Shown here one piece after another: positions 20,807 to 52,303 of a DNA stretch of 64,000 bases. The DNA lies in contig NZ_CP071798.1 in assembly GCF_017498505.1 (NCBI RefSeq), positions 3,645,501 to 3,709,500 of the forward strand, written 5' to 3'. Both the position numbers and the translations under genes were made by a program. How positions within the stretch are numbered: the first letter of the stretch is position 1; every line of letters starts with the position of its first letter. Below the pieces are notes generated by a model. The model searched no databases and had not been told where the DNA came from. It saw only the letters and a list, made by a program, of their open reading frames with translations. The DNA comes from Sporosarcina sp. Te-1. GTDB lineage: Bacteria > Bacillota > Bacilli > Bacillales_A > Planococcaceae.

Positions 20807-22245
20807 GTGCGCCCAGCATGGGCGTAGTCTATAGGGTGCAAGTCCCGGAGCTGTGAAGGCAGAAGTAGCAGTTAGCTTAACGGTAGGGTGTCCATGGTGA
20901 CATGGAATCTGAAGGAAGCGGGCGGCAAATTTCCGGTCTGAGGGACACGAACTTCATATAAGGCTATGTACGATTGGGTGAGTTTGCCTAACAAAACAAA
21001 GCCCTTTCTGCTGAAGGTTGTATGTAGTAAATGAAGCAGATAGATGGAGGGAAAGACTACGCTCTTACCTGGGGAGGTCTGATTGATACGCTAAGTACAC
21101 TTGGTAACCTATCCAGTGATGGATAGCTGAACAATCAGAAGTCAGCAGAAGCCATAGTACCATTCGAACTCGAGAAGAATGGGAAGGGCCGAACGATTAA
21201 GAAAGAACAACGTCTTGGCATTCAGTAACCTGCGTGGAACACAGATAACCGATAAGGTATGCTTGAAGAAGGAAGTGGTGAATCCCATGGGGGACTTCGA
21301 GATGGTGGAGTAGGACTGGCATAAGAAGAAGCGTTGTTCACGGAAAGAGGCGTCACATATGTTGATGGAGCGAATACTTTCACGGGACAATCTGCTTTCT
21401 GCCCTGAAACGGGTGGAAAGCAATAAAGGGAGCCACGGTGTTAATGAAATGCCCGTAGGGTACATACAGGAGGTACATCGCTGGGTTGTCGATATCGACT
21501 TGGAGAAATTCTTTGACAAAGTGAGCCATGACAAACTCATTGTACACTTACGAAACGAATCAAAGATGCCGATGACTGCAATATCTACGTGAAAATACAG
21601 AAGGTAGGTAACCGAGTTATGGACTCCCTTACTACATTTATTGAAGGGAAACATAAGTTGAAAGTGACTCTGAACAAGTCCGTAGTTGACCGTCCATGGA
21701 AGAGGAAGTTTCTAGGCTTCAGTTTCACAAATGGTAAAGAACCGAAGGTTCGCATTGCCAAAGAGAGTGTGAAACGAATGAAGAGTAAAATCCGCGAGAT
21801 TAACTTCGAGGAAGAAACCTTACTCGATGGAATATCGAATCAAGAAACTCAATCAGTATTTGATGGAGTGGTGCGAATGTTTTGCCTTGGCGGATACGCC
21901 AAGCGTGTTCATTACAATTGATTCCTGGATTAAGCGAAGGCTTCGGATGTGTACGTGGAAGAACTGGAAGAAACCAAGTACGAAGGTGAGGAAACTCATT
22001 GGGTTAGGCGTTCCGAAGGGAAAAGCAAATGAATGGGGCAACTCACGCAAAAGCTACTGGAGAATATTCAAAAGTCCGATACTACACAGAACCCTTGGAA
22101 ACTCCTATTGGAGTTCCCAAGGGCTCAAAAGTCTGATATTACGTTACGAAACTTTGCGTCAACAATCTTAATTAACCGCCGTATACCGAATGGTACGTAC
22201 GGTGGTGTGAGAGGTCGGGAGTTAATCACTCCCTCCTACCCGATT
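20807..22245 (+). mobile_element. group IIC intron (Oceanobacillus iheyensis O.i.I1-like ribozyme)
   Basis: The 5' end GTGCGCCCAGCATGGGCG and the following domain I (CTATAGGGTGCAAGTCCC, GAAGGCAGAAGTAGCAGTTA, GGAATCTGAAGGAAGCGG, CACGAACTTCATATAAGG) closely follow the well-known O. iheyensis group IIC intron as I remember it. Domain V is at 22174-22206 (ACCGCCGTATACC ... GGTACGTACGGTGGT), and domain VI at about 22207-22245. The 3' boundary is accurate to a few bases. It lies directly after a Rho-independent terminator hairpin, the typical target of class C introns. The maturase inside is broken, so mobility would need help in trans; the ribozyme core looks intact. Confidence 0.88.
21359..22171 (+). 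pseudogene. decayed group II intron reverse transcriptase/maturase
   Basis: The N-terminal MLMERILSRDNLLSALKRV and GSHGVNEMPV match group IIC maturases. They jump straight to GYIQEVHRWVVDIDLEKFFD, so a large block of RT is deleted. After HDKLI the frame again skips to DDCNIYVKIQKVGNRVMDS, losing the region before the YADD box, with a frameshift. Later pieces (RPWKRKFLGFSFT, MEWCECFALADTPSVF) are in different frames. At least two internal deletions and two or more frameshifts; no functional protein. Confidence 0.85.
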
Positions 22246-35134: not shown

Positions 35135-35195
35135 CAATGTAGAGAGCCCCCCTCATTTAGAATAAAAGAACGTTTACTCAAGGACGTCCATATGT

Positions 35196-35272
35196 AATGA
35201 GGCCGGTTGCACCACTGACTCCCTACATCCCAGGTGCCCAGATAGAGGATGTAGTTCCTAGTCTCCTACTAG
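35196..35272 (-). ncRNA. c-di-GMP-II riboswitch
   Basis: On the minus strand the class II c-di-GMP core is present: CTGGGCACCT (35241-35232), then AGTGGTGCAACCGGCC (35218-35203). As in the Clostridium class II aptamer, a pseudoknot encloses the GGGCAC segment: CTACATCC before it and GGATGTAG after it. The copy at 51514-51600 has different bases at these positions (TGCAACCC/GGGTTGCA) that still pair, so the helix is supported by covariation. A TATACT -10 lies 20 bases upstream (35298-35293). The 3' strand CCTCATT can also pair with AATGAGG in the ribosome site, predicting translational ON control. Confidence 0.85.
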
Positions 35273-35292
35273 TCTTTTGTTTCTATAGGTTA

Positions 35293-39629: not shown

Positions 39630-41915
39630 TCACTTCAAATGCTTATCAAAGAAATCAATCATCGCATTGTAGAACTCAATCCGATTTTCTTCATTTTGGA
39701 AGCCATGTCCTTCGTTTTCTTTTAACATGTATTCCACGTCAACACCGCGCTTCCGCAAAGCTTCCACGATTTGATCGGATTCGGCTTGGTTAACACGAGG
39801 ATCATTTGCGCCTTGGGCTACAAATAGTGGTGTTTTGATTTTATCAGCATGGAAGACAGGGGAGACCGCTTCCAGCAATTCCTTATCCTCGACCGGATGG
39901 CCAACTCGTTTGTAGAGGTCGTTTCTCATCGTTTCCCAATACGGCGGGATGGTGTCAAGTAATGTGAAGATATTAGAGACACCGACATAGTCTACCGCTG
40001 CTGCGTAAAGATCTGGAGTAAACGTAATGCCGGCTAAGGTCGCATAGCCTCCGAAGGATGCCCCGTAAATTCCGACCCGGTCAGGATCTGCGATGCCTTG
40101 ATCGATGGCCCATTGAACGCCATCGGTAATGTCATCTTGGATCTTTAAGCCCCATTGTTTGTCGCCTGCATCAGTAAATGCTTTTCCGTATCCAATCGAT
40201 GAACGGAAGTTCACTTGGAGCACGGCGTATCCGCGGTTGGCAAGCAACTGGACTTCCGAATTGAAGCCCCACGTATCACGTGCCCAAGGACCGCCATGTG
40301 GATTGACGATGAGCGGCAAGTTTTCCGGTTTTGTATTTTTCGGCAGCGTCAAATAGCCGTGGATCGTGAGGCCATCTCTACTTTGATAGGAGATCGGGTG
40401 CATATCGGCCATGGCGTCTCGGTCAAGCCAAGAAGCGAGTTCCGTCAATTTGGTCAATTCTTCCGTTGTTGAATCGTAATAATAGTAGGTGCCGAATTCT
40501 TTATCGCTTGAAACGAGTACGATGAACTTGGTCATATCTTCATTATAGTCATTGAGGATCAGTTCGCTTTCGCTCACTTGAAGTTTGTCTTCCAACTGGT
40601 TGAAAATGCGTTCCAAATCTTTATCGAAAAACGCATAGTGCAGTTTGTCTGTTATATACGCGCCTGCCACGATCGCATCCTTCTTCTTGTCATAGAAAGC
40701 GTTCGCCACATCGACCTGCGGGTTGGAATATAGGACTTTCTCATTGGCATCCAAATCGAACACAACTAATTCCGTCTTATCCCGTCCTTTATTGGACAAA
40801 GCATAAATGGATTGATTATCTTTTGAAAAAGCAAGTGGTGTAATAGCATCACTTTCTTCTGTTTGGACAAACGGTTTGAATTCATCCTTTTCGGTTTCGC
40901 GATAGAGAATCGTACTATTTACACCATCTGTTTCAATCGCGATTCGAATTTTGCCGTCATGGTCTGCGAGCCAGCCCCCAATATTGCCGGGGTTTTTCGC
41001 AACATGGTCCAGTTCACCTGTTTTGATATTCAGTCGGTACACATCGAAGACAGTAGGGTCTTCTTTATTCATTCCAATGAGAATTTCATCTTTCACACCA
41101 GACAGGCCGCTGATCAGTTGAACTCTAACATCTGAATACGGAGTTAAGTCCCGTTCTTCCTGACCGTTGAAGCCGGATGAATAAAGATGATAGTTTTCAT
41201 CGCCGCCGTTATCTTTTAAATAAAGGATATGATCATCCTTCCAGAATGACGCAACAATATCTCGATCAGTTGAGCTGGTCACTCGGATCGGCTCACTATC
41301 CTCATGCATCTTTTTCACAAAGACATTCATCCGGTTTTCCCATTCGGAACTATAGGAAATATATTCGCCGTCTGGTGACATTTCATAACCAAAGTCTCCC
41401 GGGTTTTTCATGAAATCTTCTACGGAGATTTCTTTTACTCCTTTATTATCAACATCCTTGGAAGCGAATGCCTTCGCATTATGAATAATGCTCTCCATTT
41501 CTTCCGCGGTCACCGTTTCTTCTGCTTGGCTGTAGACCTTCAAAAGTCCATGGATTTTTGCGGTCTGCAAGTAATCTGCAGTGGTTTTTTCCTTATCCTC
41601 CATTTGAAGAGCATGAATTAAGATCTTGGCTAGTTCGCCTTTTGTGATGTTCTTGTCATGATTCCAATCAGCATTTGAAGTCCACCGTTTCACAATTTCC
41701 TCTCTCATTTCATTGGAACCGTGCTGATACGTCAATTCGTCCAAAGTGTATTGGATGAAGTCCTGAACGGATATTGGTGCATCCACTTTCACGTTTTCCG
41801 CAATCCCTACATTCTCCCGGTCAAGCGACCGAACCGTTTCACTGGCTTTCGCACTGAGTGGATAGGATACGAGAAGTGCGGAAGCCATTGCTGCTAATAA
41901 TGCTTGTTTTTTCAC
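39630..41915 (-). CDS. secreted S9-family prolyl oligopeptidase
   Basis: 761 residues. Signal peptide (1-24, ending LSAKA), a helical region (about 45-150) that resembles degenerate SLH domains (ITKGELAKILIHAL, VTAEEMESIIH), a beta-propeller region (about 170-500), then an alpha/beta-hydrolase domain. The catalytic triad is visible: Ser in YGASFGGYA near residue 592, Asp in NDPRVN near residue 703, His in ENEGHGF near residue 735. Start is GTG behind AAGGGGGA. It should hydrolyse peptides outside the cell. Single gene, sharing a terminator with the sortase operon. Confidence 0.93.
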   Translation of the reverse strand: MKKQALLAAMASALLVSYPLSAKASETVRSLDRENVGIAENVKVDAPISVQDFIQYTLDELTYQHGSNEMREEIVKRWTSNADWNHDKNITKGELAKILIHALQMEDKEKTTADYLQTAKIHGLLKVYSQAEETVTAEEMESIIHNAKAFASKDVDNKGVKEISVEDFMKNPGDFGYEMSPDGEYISYSSEWENRMNVFVKKMHEDSEPIRVTSSTDRDIVASFWKDDHILYLKDNGGDENYHLYSSGFNGQEERDLTPYSDVRVQLISGLSGVKDEILIGMNKEDPTVFDVYRLNIKTGELDHVAKNPGNIGGWLADHDGKIRIAIETDGVNSTILYRETEKDEFKPFVQTEESDAITPLAFSKDNQSIYALSNKGRDKTELVVFDLDANEKVLYSNPQVDVANAFYDKKKDAIVAGAYITDKLHYAFFDKDLERIFNQLEDKLQVSESELILNDYNEDMTKFIVLVSSDKEFGTYYYYDSTTEELTKLTELASWLDRDAMADMHPISYQSRDGLTIHGYLTLPKNTKPENLPLIVNPHGGPWARDTWGFNSEVQLLANRGYAVLQVNFRSSIGYGKAFTDAGDKQWGLKIQDDITDGVQWAIDQGIADPDRVGIYGASFGGYATLAGITFTPDLYAAAVDYVGVSNIFTLLDTIPPYWETMRNDLYKRVGHPVEDKELLEAVSPVFHADKIKTPLFVAQGANDPRVNQAESDQIVEALRKRGVDVEYMLKENEGHGFQNEENRIEFYNAMIDFFDKHLK

Positions 41916-42189
41916 TGGATAAATCCCCCTTTTGTGTATTAGCTACATAGTACACAGATACATTGAGTTGTGTCAAATATTTCGATAAAAAGAATTTTTA
42001 TTCGTTTAGTAATATGATTTAGTATGGTTCTTCATGTGCAGAATATATTGGAATATTTAGGGGCCAACATTAGTTATCAGAACGTCCGAGTTCCAGCTAA
42101 AATAGACAATCAACATTCTATTGATTTTCTGGAAAAATATCTATATGCTAGTAGTAATTGAATAGAATATTTTGGTTCTTTGCATTCAT

Positions 42190-42345
42190 TGTAAAGATTA
42201 AAAAGGAATCAGGTGAAAGTCCTGAACGGTCCGGCCACTGTAAATGGAAAGCGATTTCAAAAAACCACTGGTGAATAACTGGGAAGGTTGAAATAGCGTC
42301 AGCATCCATAAGTCAGGAGACTTGCCAAAATAGGAATGCGTTATA
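42190..42345 (+). ncRNA. cobalamin (B12) riboswitch
   Basis: The aptamer consensus is clear: AGGAATCAGGTGAAAGTCCT, then the B12 box region GTCCGGCCACTGTAA (about 42228-42243), CCACTGG (42265-42271), AACTGGGAAGG, and AAGTCAGGAGACTTGCC (about 42310-42326). It precedes a terminator at 42406-42441 and the transcobalamin-like/ECF operon, so the operon should be shut off when B12 is plentiful. Outer boundaries are approximate. Confidence 0.93.
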
Positions 42346-42405
42346 CCTTCCGGAGAAAGGTTGCATTATGTATGTTACGTATGGTTGTACATATTTTTTA
42401 TACAT

Positions 42406-42441
42406 AAGCTCTGCCTCTTTCTGGAGGTATGGGCTTTTTTT
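42406..42441 (+). terminator. terminator of the B12 riboswitch expression platform
   Basis: AAGCTCTGCCTC pairs imperfectly with GGAGGTATGGGCTT, followed by seven Ts, 33 bases before the next start codon. Confidence 0.75.
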
Positions 42442-42473
42442 CATGATTACATAAGAGGAAGGAAGTAAGAGCG

Positions 42474-45400
42474 TTGAGAAATTTGCATAAGCAACTCTTT
42501 TCGGTATTAATGAGCCTGCTTCTAGTATTCTCGATCATTCTGCCAGGTGTTCAAGCTGCAGAAATTGAGAACAATGATGAAGTACTAGAAGCCGGAAATG
42601 CAGTTGAGGGACAAGGAGATCAAAGTCCTGAAGATGGCTTATTGCCAAGTGAAGAGACAGCAGATGAACAAACAGAACAGACAGTCGTGGAAGAAGGAAA
42701 AGGGGAGCAGTCGCCTCTGCCTAAGCAGACAATCCCTGTAAAGGTCCGCATTGAAAGTTATGATAAGACCATTTTACCGCCAACTGAAATAGATGTGGCT
42801 CCGTATGATATTACACACGCAGTTGGGGATAACGGTATTGGCAATTGGTATGTAGAAAACGACGAAATACTTGCGATCCATGCCATTATCAAGGCGTTGG
42901 AAGACAATGGATTTGACGTTTCGGACAAGCAAAATTTTGAGTTTGGTGAAGGGAATTTTATTACTAATATCAATGGATTGGAAATGAACTCCGTCAATCC
43001 TTATTACGATGGATGGATGTACTTTGTGAATAATGAATTTGCCCCTGTTGGCGTGGGGGAGTTCGAGTTGGAAGCAAATGATGAGGTTACGCTGTTCTTT
43101 ACAACCGACTACGGGGCTGTAAGCTATTCTTGGTACGACCAGTCAACGCTTGAGGTTGCAGCAAATGAAGACTTTACATTGAAGTTGCAGTCTGTTGGAA
43201 CTGTTGATAACGCTGTGATCTTAGTCAATGATCAACCACTTTTGGTTAACGGGGAAGAAGTTCGTACAGATGCACAAGGTGCAGCGAAATTACGTTTCAC
43301 CGAACCGGGTGAATATCATCTCTCTGCAAAACGGATGGATGGCGAATTCAGCAATATTACACGTCCTTACAGCAAAGTGGTTGTTCATCCAGGAAGCGAA
43401 CCGACACCAGAGCCCGGAATTGAACTGACCTCAGAACCAGACCAAAATACGGGAACTGAATCAGAGACAAAACTTGTCGTGAATCCCGCATCGGATGAAA
43501 GTAAAGTGGACAAGGTCCTAGGAAACCTATTTGAGTTCTACCGTAACAGTCGGAATAATAAAGACTTTTTTCCAGGGGTCATACCGGAGTTAAGCTGGAC
43601 AGAAATTGTAGGATTGCAAGCTGCAGGTTTTGGTGATGTACCTGCCAAGCTGCCTAACTGGATAGAAACAGATCCAGGACTCAAGCCTGACGAAAGGGAC
43701 ACACTGCACATCCGTTATATCTTTGCCATGCTCGCATTAGGTAAAGATCCGTCGAAAGCCTGGACGGCTGAAAGAAATCTTTTTGCGGAATTAGCTGCCC
43801 AACAAAATCCAGATACTGGCGCAATCGGTGCGGTGAATAAACATATGTGGGCCATGCATGCGCTGGATACAGGTGAAAAGTTAGGATACAACGTGGGGAA
43901 TTGGAATGCTGAGGCGAAAAGCAAAGCATTGAAGTATCTCCTTGGTCAGGAAAAACAAGGAGGCGGGTTTGCTTTTTCAGGAAGTACGGCCGATCCTGAT
44001 ATGACCGGCATGGCACTTTTAACGCTTGTTAATTATCAAGATGATAGTGCAGCTGCGGCTGCCATTGAGCGTTCTAAGCAAGTGTTGCGGCAAAAACAGC
44101 TTGATACCGCCGGCTGGGGTTCCTTTGGATCCGAAAACTCCAATAGCATTGCTACGGCCATTTCCGGGTTAGTTGCAATCGGAGAAGATCCCCTCTCAGA
44201 GAATTGGAAGAAGGGCGATCTGACACCACTTGATGCATTGCAACGTTTTCAATTAGAGAACGGAGCATTTACCTATACACTAGGGAAATATGCATCCACT
44301 AACATGATGGCAACTGAACAATCACTAATTGCTCTACAAGAAATTAAAACGGGCAAATCAGCCTGGCACCAATTTGCACCGGTTAACACGCCGGCGCCTG
44401 AACCGGAAAAACCGGCAGAGCCTGACCCAGAGACACCAGAGGAACCTATTGGTATTGGCAGTGACGAGAAAGAGTATACGTTACCGCAATATGCGAATGA
44501 CAACGTAAAAAAACCTATTATTTTACAATTACAAGATACCACACTTCCTAAGATCACCGCAGAGCGTGCAGGTGCAAGGTTGGAGATTCCAGGCGGTACA
44601 AAAATAACTTCTTCAAATTGGAACCGACTATTACAAGTACCAACTAAGAAAACTACAGCGCCCGAAGAGCGAAATAAGATTACTCAAGCATTACAAGGAA
44701 GTCACCTTAACGGTGTGACGGCTCACATCAAGGTAGGTGGAGACGAAAGCATTACATTTGACCGCCATGTCACGCTGCGTTTTGCTGGCCTGGGTAATCA
44801 AGAAGCAGGTTTCATTGATGCCAGCGGCAAATTCACTCTGCTGCCGAAGGAAAATAACAGTTCCTATGAGGCGTATGCCTACAAAGACCAAAATGACCTT
44901 GTCATTAAAACAAAGCATTTCACGGATTTCCTTGTGTTTGACACAACCCGTGAAGCACCGGTTGATCCAGGAACGCCGGAAAATCCAACAAATCCTGCAC
45001 CACCGGCATCACCTAGTACGAAAACGATCCTGTTTTCTGTTGAAAAGAGAACGATGGGACAGGGAGATATTATTGCACCGACCCGGGTGGACATTCAAGA
45101 CGGTGATACGGCCTACACAGTTCTGCGCCGAGTTGCGTCAGAACAGGGAATCTCCATTGATGCAACCGGTGTCGGTCCAACAGTGTATGTCAAGTCCATC
45201 GACGGGCTAGGCGAATTTGACGGGGGACCAAAAAGCGGATGGATGTACTCTGTCAACGGTGAGTTCCCGCAGTTTAGTGCTGGCATTTACGAGTTGGCTG
45301 ACGGCGACAATTTACGCTGGCAGTATACGAAAAACTTAGGGGAAGACTTGGGGAACGTATGGGATCCAAACGAAAAGCCTAGTGAACCCGAAAAGCCGGG

Positions 45401-46973
45401 GGACTCACAAAAACCAGGTGATAATGGAAAGCCAGGTGACAGTCTAAAACCTGGAGGCAACAACCCGATACCACCGGTCAGTACAGAAGTCGCTGTGAAA
45501 CTGGAGACCGCGATTAAAGATATCCAGCAAAAGCTGCTGCGAGATGGTGTACAAAGTGAATGGGAAGCAATTGGGCTTTATAAATCTGGAATAACAGTAC
45601 CATCTAGTTATTTAGAAAAGTTCCGTGAAACGCTGAACGATCAAGTAATCAGCAAGTCGGGCAAAGGTCGAATGAAGATTACGGATGTAGAGCGTCTCGT
45701 CATGGCCGCGAACGTACTAGGTATTCATCCAACGAATGCGGACAGCAAAGGATTTAATTTGCTAGAGAAGATTTACAATAGCGAATTAAGGACAACAGGT
45801 GAAGACAGCTTAACGTTCCAAGGGAATAATGGTGTGATTTTCGCTCTTATTGCTCTGGATTCGAAGAATCATGACGTACCGGAAAATGCAAAATGGAATC
45901 GTGACAAGCTGGTGAAAGAGTTGCTGAAGACACAAAAGTCAGATGGCTCCTGGAGTCTGGAAGCGACAACTAAGGGTCCAACCAGCATTGATATTACAGC
46001 AATGGCATTGACTGCTTTAGCGCCGTATAACAATCAACAAGCGGTAAGCCAGGCTATCGACAAAGCGGTTCAATATTTGTCCAATGCACAAGGAACATCA
46101 GGCGGATTCCAAGAAGCGTTTGTTGGCGGTATTTCGAGTGAGGCGACTTCACAAGTGATTATAGGATTAACGGCCAATGGAATTGATCCGAGAAGTCAGG
46201 CATTCACGAAAAACAACACCAACTTAATTGACCACTTGTTACGTTTTAAGGCGAATGATGGTGGATTCAAGCATCTGATCATTGACCAGAGTTCAAACGG
46301 AATCGCAACAGAACAAGCGCTGCAAGCACTAGTCGCTTTCGACTTATACGTCAATGGAAAAGGAGCATTGTACAGCTTTACGGAGAATGGGGTAAAACCG
46401 AATCCGACGCCAACTCCGGAACCAACACCGACTCCTTCACAATTTAAGGACACGGTTGGTCACTGGGCTGCTGACTATATTCAACAAGCTGTTGAGCAAG
46501 GATTAGTAAAAGGTTATGCAGATGGTACGTTCAAACCAAATCAGTCATTGACTCGTGCGCAGGCCGTTTCAATATTAGTCCGAGCGTTGGAATTGGAAAC
46601 AGACAAAAAGAATCCATTTACGGATACACAAAATTATGCGAAGGAAACGCAATCGGAAATCGCGGCTGCGTACCACCATGGGTTAATTAAACTACAAGAC
46701 GGCAAGTTTAGGCCATCCGAAAAAGTGACACGGGCTCAAATGGCCTTGCTATTCTACCGAGCCTATGAAATTCAAAATGGCAACAAGTATAAAGGGCAAG
46801 CGAACGCGCCATTTGCAGATATGAAGAACTACGATGCCGAAGCAAAAGAGGCTGTAAATATGTTATATGCTTTACAAATGGCATCAGGAGAAAATGGGAA
46901 ATATATGCCGGGCGCTTCCACTACCCGTGCGCAAGCGACAAAGATGCTCATGGAATTCTTGAATACAAAATAA
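42474..46973 (+). CDS. SLH-anchored transcobalamin-like protein (DUF4430 and alpha/alpha toroid domains)
   Basis: 1499 residues. Signal peptide (1-28). DUF4430 domain 1 (about 88-212; GWMYFVNNEFAPVGVGEF). Alpha/alpha toroid 1 of the prenyltransferase/squalene-cyclase-like fold (about 343-630; repeats such as G-x-F-A-F-S-G and T-G-M-A-L-L-T-L). Beta domain (660-825). DUF4430 domain 2 (848-957; SGWMYSVNGEFPQF). PGD/KPG-rich linker. Toroid 2 (1008-1300; D-G-S-W-S, D-I-T-A-M-A-L-T-A-L). PTPTPEPTPTPS linker, three SLH domains (1321-1499). Human transcobalamin and intrinsic factor combine the same two folds (alpha6/alpha6 barrel plus DUF4430-like domain). Under a B12 riboswitch and followed by an ECF importer, it probably captures corrinoids at the surface. 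Starts at TTG behind GGAAGGAAG. The binding role is inferred. Confidence 0.85.
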   Translation: MRNLHKQLFSVLMSLLLVFSIILPGVQAAEIENNDEVLEAGNAVEGQGDQSPEDGLLPSEETADEQTEQTVVEEGKGEQSPLPKQTIPVKVRIESYDKTILPPTEIDVAPYDITHAVGDNGIGNWYVENDEILAIHAIIKALEDNGFDVSDKQNFEFGEGNFITNINGLEMNSVNPYYDGWMYFVNNEFAPVGVGEFELEANDEVTLFFTTDYGAVSYSWYDQSTLEVAANEDFTLKLQSVGTVDNAVILVNDQPLLVNGEEVRTDAQGAAKLRFTEPGEYHLSAKRMDGEFSNITRPYSKVVVHPGSEPTPEPGIELTSEPDQNTGTESETKLVVNPASDESKVDKVLGNLFEFYRNSRNNKDFFPGVIPELSWTEIVGLQAAGFGDVPAKLPNWIETDPGLKPDERDTLHIRYIFAMLALGKDPSKAWTAERNLFAELAAQQNPDTGAIGAVNKHMWAMHALDTGEKLGYNVGNWNAEAKSKALKYLLGQEKQGGGFAFSGSTADPDMTGMALLTLVNYQDDSAAAAAIERSKQVLRQKQLDTAGWGSFGSENSNSIATAISGLVAIGEDPLSENWKKGDLTPLDALQRFQLENGAFTYTLGKYASTNMMATEQSLIALQEIKTGKSAWHQFAPVNTPAPEPEKPAEPDPETPEEPIGIGSDEKEYTLPQYANDNVKKPIILQLQDTTLPKITAERAGARLEIPGGTKITSSNWNRLLQVPTKKTTAPEERNKITQALQGSHLNGVTAHIKVGGDESITFDRHVTLRFAGLGNQEAGFIDASGKFTLLPKENNSSYEAYAYKDQNDLVIKTKHFTDFLVFDTTREAPVDPGTPENPTNPAPPASPSTKTILFSVEKRTMGQGDIIAPTRVDIQDGDTAYTVLRRVASEQGISIDATGVGPTVYVKSIDGLGEFDGGPKSGWMYSVNGEFPQFSAGIYELADGDNLRWQYTKNLGEDLGNVWDPNEKPSEPEKPGDSQKPGDNGKPGDSLKPGGNNPIPPVSTEVAVKLETAIKDIQQKLLRDGVQSEWEAIGLYKSGITVPSSYLEKFRETLNDQVISKSGKGRMKITDVERLVMAANVLGIHPTNADSKGFNLLEKIYNSELRTTGEDSLTFQGNNGVIFALIALDSKNHDVPENAKWNRDKLVKELLKTQKSDGSWSLEATTKGPTSIDITAMALTALAPYNNQQAVSQAIDKAVQYLSNAQGTSGGFQEAFVGGISSEATSQVIIGLTANGIDPRSQAFTKNNTNLIDHLLRFKANDGGFKHLIIDQSSNGIATEQALQALVAFDLYVNGKGALYSFTENGVKPNPTPTPEPTPTPSQFKDTVGHWAADYIQQAVEQGLVKGYADGTFKPNQSLTRAQAVSILVRALELETDKKNPFTDTQNYAKETQSEIAAAYHHGLIKLQDGKFRPSEKVTRAQMALLFYRAYEIQNGNKYKGQANAPFADMKNYDAEAKEAVNMLYALQMASGENGKYMPGASTTRAQATKMLMEFLNTK

Positions 46974-46977
46974 TGAA

Positions 46978-47015
46978 ACGATCTTGCATTCGAATGGATG
47001 CAAGATCGTCTTTTT
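46978..47015 (+). terminator. hairpin between the surface protein and the lipoprotein genes
   Basis: Perfect 12-bp stem ACGATCTTGCAT/ATGCAAGATCGT with an eight-base loop, then CTTTTT. Probably a partial terminator that lowers expression of the downstream transporter genes. Confidence 0.8.
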
Positions 47016-47031
47016 AAGGGAGGTAATTAAA

Positions 47032-47904
47032 GTGCATTGGAGGAAAATAAGTACTATTTTACTTGTAGTCATTTTAACGTTTGTTCTCTCGGCATGCGGA
47101 TCTTCTCTGCAAAAACCGACGGGACTGGAAGACGATGAAGAAATTCAGCTGACACAGGATGATCCGGTTAGCGAAGAGCAGACGGATATGCAGGAGGAAG
47201 AACAGAATAAGCCGGAGAAAAACGGACTAACTGATTTGGAAGAGCCAGTAGAGGACATGGCTCTGGACAAGACGACCGAAACAAAACGGGATTCAGAAGA
47301 ATCTAGTGTAAACAAGAAGGATTCTGGAAACACAGCAGCGACAGAAAAAAAGCCTGCTAAGAATGAAAAAACTGCAGTTGATCCATCGAAGGCTACTCCG
47401 GCGGCTCCATCCAAGCCATCAGAGAAACAAAATGAAAAACCAGCAGGGAAGCCTTCAGATAAACCTTCGACGAAACCTACAGAAAAAACAGAGACGAAAC
47501 AGCAAGATTCTAAGCCGACTGTAGAAAAACCATCAACACCTGCAGCCAGCAAAGTTGTCTATTCGATAGTCATTTCTTCCAGTGAAGTGCCCCTGCCACC
47601 GACAGAGATGGAGATTGAAGAGGGTGACACGGTACTTTCTGCTTTAATCGCGATCACGAAGAAACATAAGGTGCAGATGGATTATCGGGGAGGACAGGGA
47701 GCGACAGCTTACGTAGAAGGCATTGCCAATGTGTATGAATTTGACAGAGGGCAAGGGAGCGGTTGGATGTACCGTGTGAATGGAATCTTTCCGGATCGCG
47801 GGGCGGGCGTTATTACATTGCAAGACGGCGATCGGGTCGAATGGTTGTATACCACCAACTTGGGTGTTGACTTGAATGCTGATTTAAAGCCGTTTCGCAA
47901 GTGA
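47032..47904 (+). CDS. DUF4430 lipoprotein, probable corrinoid-binding protein
   Basis: 290 residues. Lipoprotein signal with lipobox LSAC (Cys near residue 20), a long charged linker rich in E, K, P and T (about 25-165), then one DUF4430 domain (173-285) with P-P-T-E-M-E-I-E-E-G-D-T-V and GSGWMYRVNGIFPDRGAGV. This is close to the DUF4430 domains of the preceding protein. Start is GTG at 47032 behind GGGAGG; an upstream frame from 46984 runs through the hairpin and is not used. The stop overlaps a GTG in the next gene. It would sit on the outer face of the membrane and pass corrinoid to the ECF transporter; no periplasmic-type BtuF is seen. Confidence 0.85.
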   Translation: MHWRKISTILLVVILTFVLSACGSSLQKPTGLEDDEEIQLTQDDPVSEEQTDMQEEEQNKPEKNGLTDLEEPVEDMALDKTTETKRDSEESSVNKKDSGNTAATEKKPAKNEKTAVDPSKATPAAPSKPSEKQNEKPAGKPSDKPSTKPTEKTETKQQDSKPTVEKPSTPAASKVVYSIVISSSEVPLPPTEMEIEEGDTVLSALIAITKKHKVQMDYRGGQGATAYVEGIANVYEFDRGQGSGWMYRVNGIFPDRGAGVITLQDGDRVEWLYTTNLGVDLNADLKPFRK

Positions 47905-47921
47905 AGAAAGAGGGATTGCTT

Positions 47922-48800
47922 ATGGGGAATGGGATACATTCGATTCACCCTTTCGTTATGTTTTTCTATTATGTCTGCATAGGTTTTTATGCCATGTTTT
48001 TTAATCACCCAGTTTTTTTGTTGGCGGGTTGCTTCGCGTTGGTAGCAGTCAATTTGACACATGACGGTGGGACCGCTATGAAACAGTGGGTGCCCTTGAT
48101 GATTAGCATGACCATGCTGATTATCTTAGTGAATCCATTTATTAATTCAAGAGGAACCCATGTATTTTTTTACTTCCGCGGAAAACAAGTGACGCTCGAA
48201 GCGACATTATACGGAGTGGTTACTTCCATGTCATTGCTCATGATCCTATTGCTCTTCATTTCGTTGAATCTTGTATTGAATGGAAATAAAATATTGTACA
48301 TTTTCTCAAGAATATTGCCGAAAACCGCTTTTTTAATTATGTTGTCTATCCGATTCGTTCCCCTCTTAAAGCGACGGTTGACGGAAATAACAGATGTTCA
48401 ACGGTTAAAAGGGATGACAATCAGACAAGGATCAATCCGAAATCGGGCTAAAAGCGGTATGTCCATCATGCAGGTTTTGCTTGCCTGGTCGTTGGAAGAA
48501 GCAATTGAAACAGCCGATTCGATGAAAGCAAGAGGATATGGAACAGGCAAACGAAGTCCTTATATTCCCTATCGAATCACGAAAACGGATAAAAATTGGA
48601 TTGTCTATTTGGTTCTATTTTTTATCCTCAGCGTCGCCGGCGGCCTATTAGGTTATGGGAAAATCATCATTTATCCAAAGCTTGGTACACTGCATTTGTA
48701 TCCGCTCGATTGGGTCGTCTTTTCATGCAGTTTGGCTGTCATGTTATTTCCAGTGTTTGTGGAAGGGAGAGAGCAATTGAAATGGAATTATTCCGCTTGA
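47922..48800 (+). CDS. ECF transporter transmembrane (T) component
   Basis: 292 residues with five or six membrane helices. The EcfT coupling region is visible: E-E-A-I-E-T-A-D-S-M-K-A-R-G-Y-G near residue 205, the second A-R-G-type motif that contacts the ATPases, and R-F-V-P-L-L-K-R-R-L-T-E-I near residue 148. The ATG at 47922 has AGAGGG nine bases upstream; a GTG at 47901 overlapping the previous stop is the alternative. It overlaps the ATPase gene by 19 bases. Together with the next two genes it forms a dedicated ECF importer. Confidence 0.9.
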   Translation: MGNGIHSIHPFVMFFYYVCIGFYAMFFNHPVFLLAGCFALVAVNLTHDGGTAMKQWVPLMISMTMLIILVNPFINSRGTHVFFYFRGKQVTLEATLYGVVTSMSLLMILLLFISLNLVLNGNKILYIFSRILPKTAFLIMLSIRFVPLLKRRLTEITDVQRLKGMTIRQGSIRNRAKSGMSIMQVLLAWSLEEAIETADSMKARGYGTGKRSPYIPYRITKTDKNWIVYLVLFFILSVAGGLLGYGKIIIYPKLGTLHLYPLDWVVFSCSLAVMLFPVFVEGREQLKWNYSA

Positions 48801-50455
48801 ATGAAGTCACATTTTCTTTTCTGGATGCGAGACAAAATGTTTTGCAAGACATCAGCGTCACATTGAAAGAAGGAGAGTTTGTCATAATTGGAGGAGCGAG
48901 TGGCAGCGGAAAAACGACACTTTTGAAACTGTTGAAAAAAGAGCTGCGACCGACAGGTGAGTTAACGGGTACTATTTTCTTTAGAGAGAAGCCGCTGGAT
49001 GAGTGGGATGGGAGATCATTAGTTGAGCAGATCGGTTATGTTTCCCAGGATCCTGACAATCAAATTGTCATGGATGAAGTCATGCAGGAAATTGTATTTG
49101 GTCTCGAAAATCTTGGCTATTCCAATTTTGAAATGCGTAAGCGAGTGGCGGAAATGGTTCATTTTTTTGGAGTGGAGGATTTATTACGAGCAAAGCCGTC
49201 CGAACTGTCGGGCGGTCAGAAGCAAATAGTAAACCTATTATCTGCCTTATTACTGAAACCAAGTGTATTATTGCTGGATGAACCGACATCCCAGCTTGAC
49301 CCGGTCGCGGCAAAAGAGCTTGTTTTAATGCTGGAACGGCTGAATAAAGAAACGGGAATGACCATTGTGCTAGTGGAGCATCGATTAGAAGAGCTGTATG
49401 CCATGGCAGACAGAGTCTTGTTCATGGAGCAGGGCCGTCTACTTTATGACGGCTCCAGCAAAGAAGTCATTGCAGGAGTTTATGAAGATCAAGCCACACA
49501 GTTTTCAGCATATTTGCCGACGTTCGCACGATTGTATATGGAATTTGAATCCCAACCGCTTTGCGAATCAATTCCGTTGACTGTTAAAGAGTGTAAGCAA
49601 TGGATTGGCAGAAGAGGAATGGAAGAGGTCGCTTTGCCAGCAGTAAAAAAGGATCGAGAAGAAGGTCCAATTTTATTGGAGATGGAAGATGTCTATTATC
49701 GATATACTAAAAATACACCACTTGTTTTAAAGGATTTTAGGTTAATTCTCCGAAAAGGAGAATTCTTTTCGCTAGTAGGAGGAAATGGCAGCGGGAAAAC
49801 TACGGCATTGCGAGCAGGAATCGGAAGTATAAAACCACAACGTGGAAAAATACGATTCGACGGTCGGGATATTGGAAAAATGAAAGATTCAGAGTGGGTA
49901 GGTAACATTGCATACTTGCCGCAAAATCCGCGTACATACTTTTTGCACCAAACGATTGAAGAAGAGATGCTGCAAAGTAATGCGTGTCTTACTGCGACAG
50001 AAGCAGAGATGAGAATGACTACGTTGTTGGATACATTCGGCATTTCTCATTTGCGGTCAAGGCATCCTTATGATTGCTCAGGAGGAGAAATGCAAAAAGC
50101 GGCTCTCGCCTGTATTTTGATGGGGGAGCCCGAAATCTTATTCATTGACGAACCGACAAAAGGAATGGATCCGAATTCCAAACAGCAATTGGGGGAGTTG
50201 TTGACACACTTGCAAAAGCAGGGGCTGACAATTTTCATGGTCACCCACGACATCGGCTTTACGGCTCGCTTTGCAGAGCGCTGTGCCATGATGTTCGATG
50301 GGGAGATTGCAGTTGTAGGGACACCGGATGAACTGTTCAAAGGAAACTATTTCTACACGACAGCTATCAACCGAGCGACACGTGATACGCAACAGCCGGA
50401 AGTGTTAACATATGAGGAGGCCGTTGCAACATGGAACGCTCACGCAACTATTTAG
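48782..50455 (+). CDS. ECF transporter ATPase, two fused ABC domains
   Basis: 557 residues holding two ABC ATPase domains. Domain 1 has Walker A GASGSGKTTLLK near residue 40, signature LSGGQKQ and Walker B VLLLDEPTSQLDP. Domain 2 has Walker A GGNGSGKTTALR near residue 335, signature CSGGEMQKAA and Walker B ILFIDEPTKGMDP. This fuses the usual EcfA and EcfA' subunits in one chain. The ATG at 48782 lies inside the end of the T-component gene; a longer frame from 48596 is a shadow. It overlaps the S-component gene by 25 bases. It powers the B12-cluster importer. Confidence 0.93.
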   Translation: MELFRLNEVTFSFLDARQNVLQDISVTLKEGEFVIIGGASGSGKTTLLKLLKKELRPTGELTGTIFFREKPLDEWDGRSLVEQIGYVSQDPDNQIVMDEVMQEIVFGLENLGYSNFEMRKRVAEMVHFFGVEDLLRAKPSELSGGQKQIVNLLSALLLKPSVLLLDEPTSQLDPVAAKELVLMLERLNKETGMTIVLVEHRLEELYAMADRVLFMEQGRLLYDGSSKEVIAGVYEDQATQFSAYLPTFARLYMEFESQPLCESIPLTVKECKQWIGRRGMEEVALPAVKKDREEGPILLEMEDVYYRYTKNTPLVLKDFRLILRKGEFFSLVGGNGSGKTTALRAGIGSIKPQRGKIRFDGRDIGKMKDSEWVGNIAYLPQNPRTYFLHQTIEEEMLQSNACLTATEAEMRMTTLLDTFGISHLRSRHPYDCSGGEMQKAALACILMGEPEILFIDEPTKGMDPNSKQQLGELLTHLQKQGLTIFMVTHDIGFTARFAERCAMMFDGEIAVVGTPDELFKGNYFYTTAINRATRDTQQPEVLTYEEAVATWNAHATI

Positions 50456-51117
50456 TCCTCGTATCGATTGTACTTGTCATTCTACTTGTCGTATCCATCG
50501 TATTTTTTCACTACAAATCTTACCTATTATTGAGCTTCATCGTGATTGCATGCAGTATGATCCCATTTTTTGTTCGCTTTGAATGGAGAGACGTAGCGGG
50601 GCGTGAAATTGTGTTGCTCGCTATGCTTGCAGCGATCGCTGCAGTTGGGCGTGTGCCATTTGCCGGGTTGCCAAGTGTCCAGCCTACTTCATTTATCATT
50701 ATCATGGCGGGTCTGGTCTTCGGAGCGGAATCAGGTTTTATCGTTGGAGCCGTGGCAGCAATTGTATCAAACTTTTTCCTTGGACAAGGCCCTTGGACAC
50801 CGTGGCAAATGTATGCATGGGGGATGATGGGCATGACTGCGGGGCTGTTGCGTAATGCATGGTGGATGAAATCCATTTGGGGGAAATGTATATTCGGATT
50901 TGTGTGGGGCTACTTATTCGGTTGGTTCATGAATATGTGGATCATCGTCAGCAATGTAGAAGCCCTATCCTGGGATTTTTTCATTGGCATCTATGTATCC
51001 AGTATCTACTTTGACTTAGCACATGGTCTATCCAATGTTTTTTTTCTATGTATCTTTGGTACGAGTTGGATGAAGATATTGCAACGGGTTCAACGGAAAT
51101 ATGGGCTGCTTGAATAA
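50431..51117 (+). CDS. ECF transporter substrate-binding (S) component, probable cobalamin type
   Basis: 228 residues with about seven membrane helices. S-component marks: A-A-I-A-A-V-G-R-V-P-F near residue 68 and F-I-I-I-M-A-G-L-V-F-G-A-E-S-G-F-I-V-G-A-V-A near residue 88. This matches the CbrT/cobalamin-type ECF S component as used in lactobacilli. GAGGAGG precedes the ATG, which overlaps the ATPase gene. Substrate assignment rests on the B12 riboswitch and the DUF4430 neighbours. Last gene of the operon; a strong terminator follows. Confidence 0.85.
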   Translation: MERSRNYLVLVSIVLVILLVVSIVFFHYKSYLLLSFIVIACSMIPFFVRFEWRDVAGREIVLLAMLAAIAAVGRVPFAGLPSVQPTSFIIIMAGLVFGAESGFIVGAVAAIVSNFFLGQGPWTPWQMYAWGMMGMTAGLLRNAWWMKSIWGKCIFGFVWGYLFGWFMNMWIIVSNVEALSWDFFIGIYVSSIYFDLAHGLSNVFFLCIFGTSWMKILQRVQRKYGLLE

Positions 51118-51513: not shown

Positions 51514-51600
51514 GAATAGAAATGGAAACGTTGAAATGCAACCCGCATCTGGGCACCTGGGTTGCATGGAGTAACTGGTGCAACCGGCCTGATTTTATTC
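51514..51600 (+). ncRNA. c-di-GMP-II riboswitch with terminator platform
   Basis: GGAAAC (51533-51538), a 9-bp pseudoknot ATGCAACCC (51537-51545) / GGGTTGCAT (51560-51568), CTGGGCACC (51549-51557), and ACTGGTGCAACCGGCC (51573-51588). The order GGAAAC - 5' pseudoknot strand - TGGGCAC - 3' strand - AGTG/CTGGTGCAACCG is that of the Clostridium class II c-di-GMP aptamer. P1 can form between GAATAGAAATGG and the strand ending TTTTATTC. The P1 3' strand CCTGATT (51588-51594) can instead pair with AATTAGG (51621-51627), which precedes seven Ts. That predicts a terminator without ligand and read-through with c-di-GMP. Confidence 0.9.
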
Positions 51601-51667: not shown

Positions 51668-52303
51668 ATGAGGGTTGTCATTGTAGATGATCATCCAGTC
51701 GTCCGAAGAGGACTAGCAGCCGTTCTGTTGCAGCTGGAAACGTTCGAGGTGATTGGGGAAGCGTCGAATGGGAAGGAAGCAATCATGCTGATGGCTGAAA
51801 CTATGCCGGAATTAGCGATTATCGATCTGCAGTTAGGGATGGAATCGGGACTTGATCTCATCTCCAAAATTCAAAGGCAGGGCATGCGCTGCAAGTTTAT
51901 CGTCCTGACTTCTTCGCCGGACAAAAATAACTTCACCAAGGCGAAAGAATTAGGCGTGGCCGGATATATTTCCAAAGAAGCGTTGCCGGAAGAGTTGGTA
52001 CATGCCTTGCAGATGGTATGCAAAGGAAGAACGTATTATGATCCTCGTATTCTGGAGCAGATGGTCGGCGTTCATACAGAGCGGGTTGCTATGGTGAATG
52101 TATTGACGCCTAAGGAGACAGAGGTGTTGATTGAACTGGGCAAAGGGCTTTCCAACAAAGAAATCTCCCAGATGTTATATATTACGGAATACACCGTCAA
52201 AAAACATGTTAGCCAAGTGTTGGGCAAGTTGAATTTGGCAGATCGCACGCAAGCTGCTTTATATGCAAATGCTTTGGGATTGGTGCGTTATGTTGTGAAT
52301 TAA
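51668..52303 (+). CDS. LuxR/NarL-type response regulator, paralogue of 34481-35134
   Basis: 211 residues. Receiver domain with VIVDDHPVVRRGL, phospho-acceptor in LAIIDLQLG near residue 55, T-S-S-P switch residues and lysine in ISKEALPE. LuxR DNA-binding domain at the C-terminus (LTPKETEVLIELGKGLSNKE, EYTVKKHVSQVLGKL). No histidine kinase nearby. GAGGTGG precedes the ATG. The leader is a c-di-GMP-II riboswitch (51514-51600). The operon of secreted helical proteins follows 470 bases later behind the shared TATACTAAAAATAGTTCC element. Like its paralogue, probably a c-di-GMP-controlled activator of surface genes. Confidence 0.9.
   Translation: MRVVIVDDHPVVRRGLAAVLLQLETFEVIGEASNGKEAIMLMAETMPELAIIDLQLGMESGLDLISKIQRQGMRCKFIVLTSSPDKNNFTKAKELGVAGYISKEALPEELVHALQMVCKGRTYYDPRILEQMVGVHTERVAMVNVLTPKETEVLIELGKGLSNKEISQMLYITEYTVKKHVSQVLGKLNLADRTQAALYANALGLVRYVVN

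Follow-up and report, generated by a model that had tools for sequence, protein, structure and literature searches.

The window analyzed here is a 64,000-nucleotide stretch of Sporosarcina sp. Te-1 (NCBI RefSeq contig NZ_CP071798.1, positions 3,645,501 to 3,709,500), whose genome is a single contig of 4,297,762 bases. Within it lies an operon headed by a cobalamin riboswitch, in which the leader is followed by five plus-strand genes, the last ending at 51117. These open reading frames (ORFs) encode a large surface protein built from DUF4430 and alpha/alpha-toroid domains, a DUF4430 lipoprotein and an energy-coupling factor (ECF) transporter. The features of the operon, some of them drawn from two AlphaFold2 (AF2) models, A and B, are as follows.

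42156–42343, plus strand: cobalamin riboswitch aptamer, RF00174 (cmscan 112.8 bits against a gathering score of 31.5, E value 1.8e-27)
42344–42445, plus strand: riboswitch expression platform with a terminator-like hairpin (42412–42429) and a T-run (terminator-like site; leader fold)
42474–46973, plus strand: ORF1, a 1499-residue secreted surface protein comprising a signal peptide (read by eye), DUF4430-1, toroid-1, a middle domain, DUF4430-2, toroid-2 and three S-layer homology (SLH) domains
42738–43118, plus strand: DUF4430-1 of ORF1 (PF14478, 54.1 bits against a cut-off of 23.8; core match 42897–43103, outer limits set by eye)
43494–44408, plus strand: alpha/alpha toroid 1 of ORF1 (homologues; AF2 model B and its fold matches)
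44559–45068, plus strand: middle beta-rich domain of ORF1 (strands in AF2 model B; mostly absent from the close relative L092)
45102–45332, plus strand: DUF4430-2 of ORF1 (PF14478, 72.3 bits; present in AF2 models A and B)
45483–46388, plus strand: alpha/alpha toroid 2 of ORF1 (AF2 model A, predicted local distance difference test 89.8; a type found again in most of the related operons examined)
46431–46970, plus strand: three SLH domains of ORF1, cell-wall anchor (PF00395 in three stretches)
47032–47904, plus strand: ORF2, DUF4430 lipoprotein (PF14478, 68.1 bits; lipobox-like LSAC; mechanical ORF from 46984)
47901–48800, plus strand: ORF3, EcfT, the transmembrane component, of the CbiQ family (PF02361, E value 1.5e-12)
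48782–50455, plus strand: ORF4, fused EcfA-EcfA' ATPase (TIGR04520 and TIGR04521 above cut-off; start inferred from a 557-residue relative in locus L091; mechanical ORF from 48596)
50431–51117, plus strand: ORF5, CbrT-like ECF S component (PF12822; best PDB match 6fnp, ECF-CbrT, E value 8.9e-15)

The RF00174 aptamer sits directly upstream of the operon, on the same strand as its five genes, and confirms the cobalamin riboswitch that an initial annotation of the sequence had placed at the operon head; the start given there, 42190, falls inside the aptamer. The leader has a folding energy of −34.3 kcal/mol (z = −4.5 relative to shuffled sequences). We infer the direction of switching and regard the element as a probable OFF switch. 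Across the whole genome there are seven cobalamin riboswitch matches, this one included.

The Pfam matches of ORF1 above their cut-offs are two stretches of DUF4430, three of SLH, and, in the toroids, Prenyltrans and SQHop_cyclase_C. The proposal that the first protein carries the DUF4430 and toroid modules twice over is thus borne out, with both DUF4430 domains matched by PF14478, toroid-2 recognized by Pfam and toroid-1 supported by relatives and by the AF2 model. Libraries recognize toroid-1 weakly, through the NCBIfam SCO2321 family (best stretch 482–622, 47.4 bits, its cut-off being 300; E value 1.2e-12); it is detected by its homologues in relatives and folds as a toroid in the AF2 model. 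As a separate observation, SCO2321 is a membrane protein family, and its sub-cut-off match to the toroid-1 region (43494–44408) may indicate an actinobacterial relative of the system; the family has a link to Streptomyces. Surface anchoring through the SLH domains was likewise correctly read, as the SLH domains of a solved S-layer protein match this region at an E value of 5.2e-18.

Downstream, the DUF4430 lipoprotein and full ECF transporter that had been proposed are all identifiable, as EcfT, a fused EcfA-EcfA protein and an S component. The likely start of ORF2 is the GTG at 47032, downstream of a good ribosome-binding site, and its best named matches are from Sporosarcina, at 96 percent. 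For the S component, the match to ECF-CbrT stands well apart from the runner-up in the PDB (E value 0.086). The genome holds only three DUF4430 matches, two in ORF1 and one in the lipoprotein, all from this operon.

To what extent is this arrangement conserved? DUF4430 is carried by 38 of the 121 genomes of the organism's own GTDB family, its own included. We examined 40 loci (L045–L084) from 32 of the other 37 DUF4430-bearing genomes, annotated with the modules of the window. The S component is present in 29 of these loci, and a toroid protein accompanies it in all 29; in 28 of them a same-strand RF00174 immediately precedes the first module gene, the exception being L045. The simplest operons (e.g., L050–L056 and L060–L062) consist of a toroid protein, a DUF4430 lipoprotein, EcfT, a fused EcfA-EcfA and the S component, and larger ones add further toroid and DUF4430 modules, in either order, plus SLH domains. 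We also observed toroid/DUF4430 surface genes that have a cobalamin riboswitch of their own and are without EcfT or an S component in the fetched stretch (L057, L058, L059, L073 and L074).

A second set of 76 loci, from named relatives, was obtained by searching a genome collection with 13 lipoprotein domains and taking the best 80 of 553 confirmed matches, a selection biased toward close kin. Among them, 67 have the S component, 64 a toroid and 33 an SLH-bearing module protein, and they extend to Paenibacillus, Tissierella and many Clostridia. With a riboswitch model built from 33 of these loci's own riboswitches, all Bacillales sequences, a riboswitch was found within 1.5 kb upstream of a module gene in 51 of the 76. 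Five of the remaining 25 have one 2.4–5.4 kb upstream, in a further 10 no more than 1 kb of the locus precedes the first module gene, and in the last 10 this Bacillales-trained model finds none. At least three (L108, L127 and L142) of the 12 loci without a toroid begin near the start of the locus.

The link between DUF4430 and cobalamin riboswitches is general in the phylum. In an even sample of 199 genomes of the organism's phylum, 62 carry DUF4430, its own among them, and the other 61 were used. A same-strand RF00174 match lies within 7 kb upstream of at least 76 of their 128 DUF4430 matches, against 0.75 expected by chance for genomes of 2.5 Mb; the controls, among the riboswitch matches listed, were 0 for the opposite strand upstream and 8 for the same strand downstream. 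At least 37 of the 61 genomes have one or more DUF4430 matches with such a riboswitch. These riboswitch counts are lower bounds, resting on 150 listed matches and stricter filters. The core that recurs combines a toroid protein with a DUF4430 lipoprotein and an ECF transporter of the CbrT type, so that the two halves of transcobalamin are often separate genes. Because RF00174 is wholly unmatched in six DUF4430 genomes, DUF4430 is probably not always a B12 protein. Four of the six (G182, G221, G255 and G285) belong to one family, f58, in which the DUF4430 ORFs are short (125–150 residues), which suggests another ligand or role.

We also compared the folds of ORF1 with those of the animal B12 carriers, which combine a toroid with a beta-grasp domain. 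In a Foldseek search with AF2 model B, animal transcobalamin, intrinsic factor and haptocorrin were the top matches. DUF4430-2 resembles the beta domain of human transcobalamin with a template-modeling (TM) score of 0.73 by target length, and by sequence profile DUF4430 matches the beta domain of haptocorrin at an E value of 2.6e-4; a 13-domain profile of the lipoprotein DUF4430 had no PDB match at E ≤ 10, and a larger profile did match. The toroids are less specific. Their profile match to the intrinsic factor toroid is weak (E value 0.044), their sequence profiles match cyclases first, and in structure comparison terpene cyclases score highest by Z, with GH88/105 enzymes and epimerases also listed. 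No transcobalamin, intrinsic factor or haptocorrin entry appears among the 50 matches in each of the two toroid fold lists, which does not exclude them. The suggestion that these are the two folds of transcobalamin is supported for DUF4430, whereas a toroid alone scores highest against terpene cyclases, and we rejected the toroid by itself as diagnostic of a transcobalamin. PF01122, the family of the animal carriers, is not among the seven families matched by ORF1 at E ≤ 0.1, nor among the 25 of 39 families listed for 76 members.

Several residues are candidates for the ligand site on the basis of sequence conservation. These are the near-invariant polar residues of toroid-2 (D1173, T1175, E1223, Q1227, H1267 and Q1281; 53 rows) and W923 of DUF4430, which is invariant (49 rows). 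One of them, H1267, can be compared, as no more than a tentative counterpart, with the histidine by which transcobalamin binds cobalt (His193 in the rat protein; PMC11107200).

The rest of the genome indicates how the operon may serve its host. No match to CbiC, the sole B12 synthesis enzyme searched, was found in the genome, and five proteins with B12-binding domains lie above cut-off; the organism therefore probably uses B12 and depends on salvage. Other cobalamin riboswitches lie near a BtuF-like (Peripla_BP_2) and a FecCD gene (L011 and L013), near a BtuF-like gene (L014), near the large chain of ribonucleotide reductase and a 304-residue protein with no Pfam match at E ≤ 1e-5 (L012), and near MetE (L015). 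Late salvage genes include one for a CbiB-family protein, others being read by eye. The earlier description of a relay lacking BtuF applies to the operon, where none of the five proteins matches Peripla_BP_2, but not to the genome, which has three Peripla_BP_2 genes, two of them followed by FecCD. With BtuF-like genes at L011, L013 and L014, we rejected the idea that the system replaces BtuF.

Presence of DUF4430 does not by itself mark the loss of B12 synthesis: CbiC occurs in 12 of the 38 DUF4430 genomes of the family and in 29 of the 83 without the domain (Fisher p = 0.84). The number of DUF4430 matches per genome gives another picture, with CbiC in 9 of 11 family genomes that have a single match and in 3 of 27 that have several (Fisher p = 6e-5, in a post hoc test with no correction for shared ancestry). 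In genus g9, CbiC is present in four of four genomes with a single DUF4430 match and in none of four with several. Larger surface arrays in cells unable to make the corrin ring would fit this pattern, with CbiC as the sole enzyme searched.

The operon is a variant of a kind predicted by Burroughs et al., 2007 (PMC1796856). They described bacterial transcobalamin-like SLBB domains fused to toroids, in either order, in secreted or cell-surface proteins, with CbiO and CbiQ genes in the operon and often a second paralogue, in hosts usually without key B12 synthesis enzymes. They predicted a role in B12 scavenging and proposed that B12 carriers were transferred from Gram-positive bacteria to animals. 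The present operon shares the beta-grasp of the transcobalamin C-terminal type (three PF14478 matches), secretion, toroid fusion, a CbiO-like ATPase and a CbiQ-like protein. The text of that paper mentions neither riboswitches nor SLH domains, and the first part of its section 7 names no S component. Riboswitch control, the CbrT-type S component, SLH display, the split toroid/lipoprotein core and the link between array size and CbiC are additions to the 2007 prediction. No experimental follow-up on such bacterial proteins was found among the open-licence literature matches listed, which include two proteomics papers on lactic acid bacteria in which the term DUF4430 occurs.

Other known systems resemble the operon in part. 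The S component is homologous to CbrT of Lactobacillus delbrueckii (6fnp; PMC5997447); in that species CbrT and other S components draw on one common ECF module, whereas the operon has a module of its own, fused ATPases and extracellular toroid/DUF4430 partners. Unlike the animal carriers, which are soluble and endocytosed, ORF1 is wall-anchored, has several modules per chain and places DUF4430 also before the toroid. In BtuG, Bacteroides has a protein that takes up B12 at the cell surface for delivery to a transporter, as is proposed for ORF1; BtuG is described as exclusive to the Bacteroidetes and works with BtuB, and the term 'DUF' does not occur in that text (PMC6143338). BtuFCD too provides B12 uptake behind cobalamin riboswitches, but it consists of a Peripla_BP_2 binding protein and a FecCD permease, families other than those of the operon.

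Taken together, we consider it likely that this is an operon for scavenging a corrinoid, vitamin B12 or a precursor, which is probably off when cobalamin is plentiful and which works by capture and relay. The initial annotation's relay for B12 capture is upheld in part: the riboswitch, gene order, domain make-up, CbrT-type S component and conservation are observed, while corrinoid binding and its passage between proteins are what we infer from them. In such a mechanism, the toroid and DUF4430 domains would close on a corrinoid as in transcobalamin, and the SLH-anchored protein would gather it within the cell wall. At the membrane the DUF4430 lipoprotein, paired with a toroid, would receive the corrinoid, and the S component and ECF module would import it, alongside the BtuFCD-type transporters. 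Separately made alpha and beta domains of human transcobalamin assemble when cyanocobalamin is added (PMC5599065), and the beta domain takes up cobalamin first, before the alpha domain closes (PMC11107200); by the same token, the ligand could join a toroid to a DUF4430 lipoprotein that is encoded separately. Release from the animal carriers requires proteolysis (PMC11107200), whereas a pair joined in this way could reopen for handover without destruction of the carrier.

A broader and more tentative scheme, one we would at present rather doubt than endorse, is that of a split transcobalamin. The ancestral form would be a two-gene unit, a surface toroid and a membrane DUF4430 lipoprotein, clasping a corrinoid only when one is present. 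Additional toroid and DUF4430 modules, held out by SLH domains, would line up as half-sites, and the corrinoid would travel along this chain by exchanging halves until a DUF4430 lipoprotein hands it over to the S component of the CbrT type. Loss of corrin-ring synthesis would drive expansion of the array, and animal transcobalamin would be a fused, soluble descendant.

Alternative roles concern either the ligand or the surface protein. The operon might import a precursor or a non-cobalamin cobamide (e.g., cobinamide or a lower-ligand variant) and so complement a BtuFCD that handles cobalamin. With two sets of BtuF plus FecCD and late salvage genes in the genome, a second system would pay most if it took a different corrinoid, and ECF-CbrT transports cobinamide as well as cobalamin (PMC5997447). 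However, neither the riboswitch nor the relatedness to CbrT separates cobalamin from its precursors, and we view this as possible rather than probable. It is unlikely, though worth considering, that the surface protein instead stores B12 or sequesters it from competitors, with the lipoprotein and ECF transporter importing it independently. The simplest operons (e.g., L050–L056), which are without SLH domains and a surface DUF4430, and the riboswitch-headed surface genes at L057, L058, L059, L073 and L074 are consistent with such a role, but the surface gene comes first in the window's ECF operon and a toroid protein is found in every family locus with an S component.

We give the least credence, and very little, to a reading in which ORF1 is an S-layer protein that chiefly binds the wall or glycans or acts as an enzyme, its B12 control being incidental and its toroids acting on glycans or isoprenoids. 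The leading position of terpene cyclases in both structure and sequence comparisons, and the presence of GH88/105 enzymes and epimerases in the lists, would suit such a protein. Against it stand the resemblance of DUF4430 to the beta domains of human transcobalamin and haptocorrin, and the recurrence of toroid and DUF4430 with CbrT-type ECF genes behind cobalamin riboswitches.

The window contains further features around the operon.

39630–41915, minus strand: S9 peptidase whose start resembles a signal peptide, transcribed divergently from the operon
51516–51598, plus strand: c-di-GMP-II riboswitch, preceding a LuxR-type response regulator (51668–52303)
35192–35274, minus strand: c-di-GMP-II riboswitch
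20891–21189, plus strand: group II intron RNA domains

A role for the S9 peptidase as a release protease was considered and rejected: at E ≤ 1e-10 only three loci of the 76 from named relatives have it near the operon, each of them from Sporosarcina, and none was found at the 40 family loci (L045–L084). Beyond the LuxR-type regulator, ORFs for secreted-looking proteins continue up to 54811; two were scanned, with no family above cut-off. Family relatives also contain a second related system (L046 9482–18344 with L085 8661–8837; L047/L086, L048/L089, L049/L087 and L064/L088). It includes genes for a toroid protein, a short DUF4430 protein, an EcfT-like protein, fused ATPases, a MoxR-type AAA ATPase, a DUF58 protein, a transglutaminase-like protein and very large DUF4430 proteins, with cobalamin riboswitches within or upstream of the clusters. 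No S component was seen in these clusters, of which L046 was the one checked with Pfam.

High-affinity proteins that capture B12 are known from Bacteroides and from animals, while capture outside the thick Gram-positive wall seems to have been little studied. In this operon the parts form a defined set linked to a riboswitch, with which one can test how a Gram-positive cell captures a scarce, large cofactor, and its riboswitch control, anchoring and layout make the 2007 prediction testable. It also bears on the proposed origin of the animal carriers: the two-gene form would show a possible state before fusion, and a way in which B12 could be released without destruction of the carrier.

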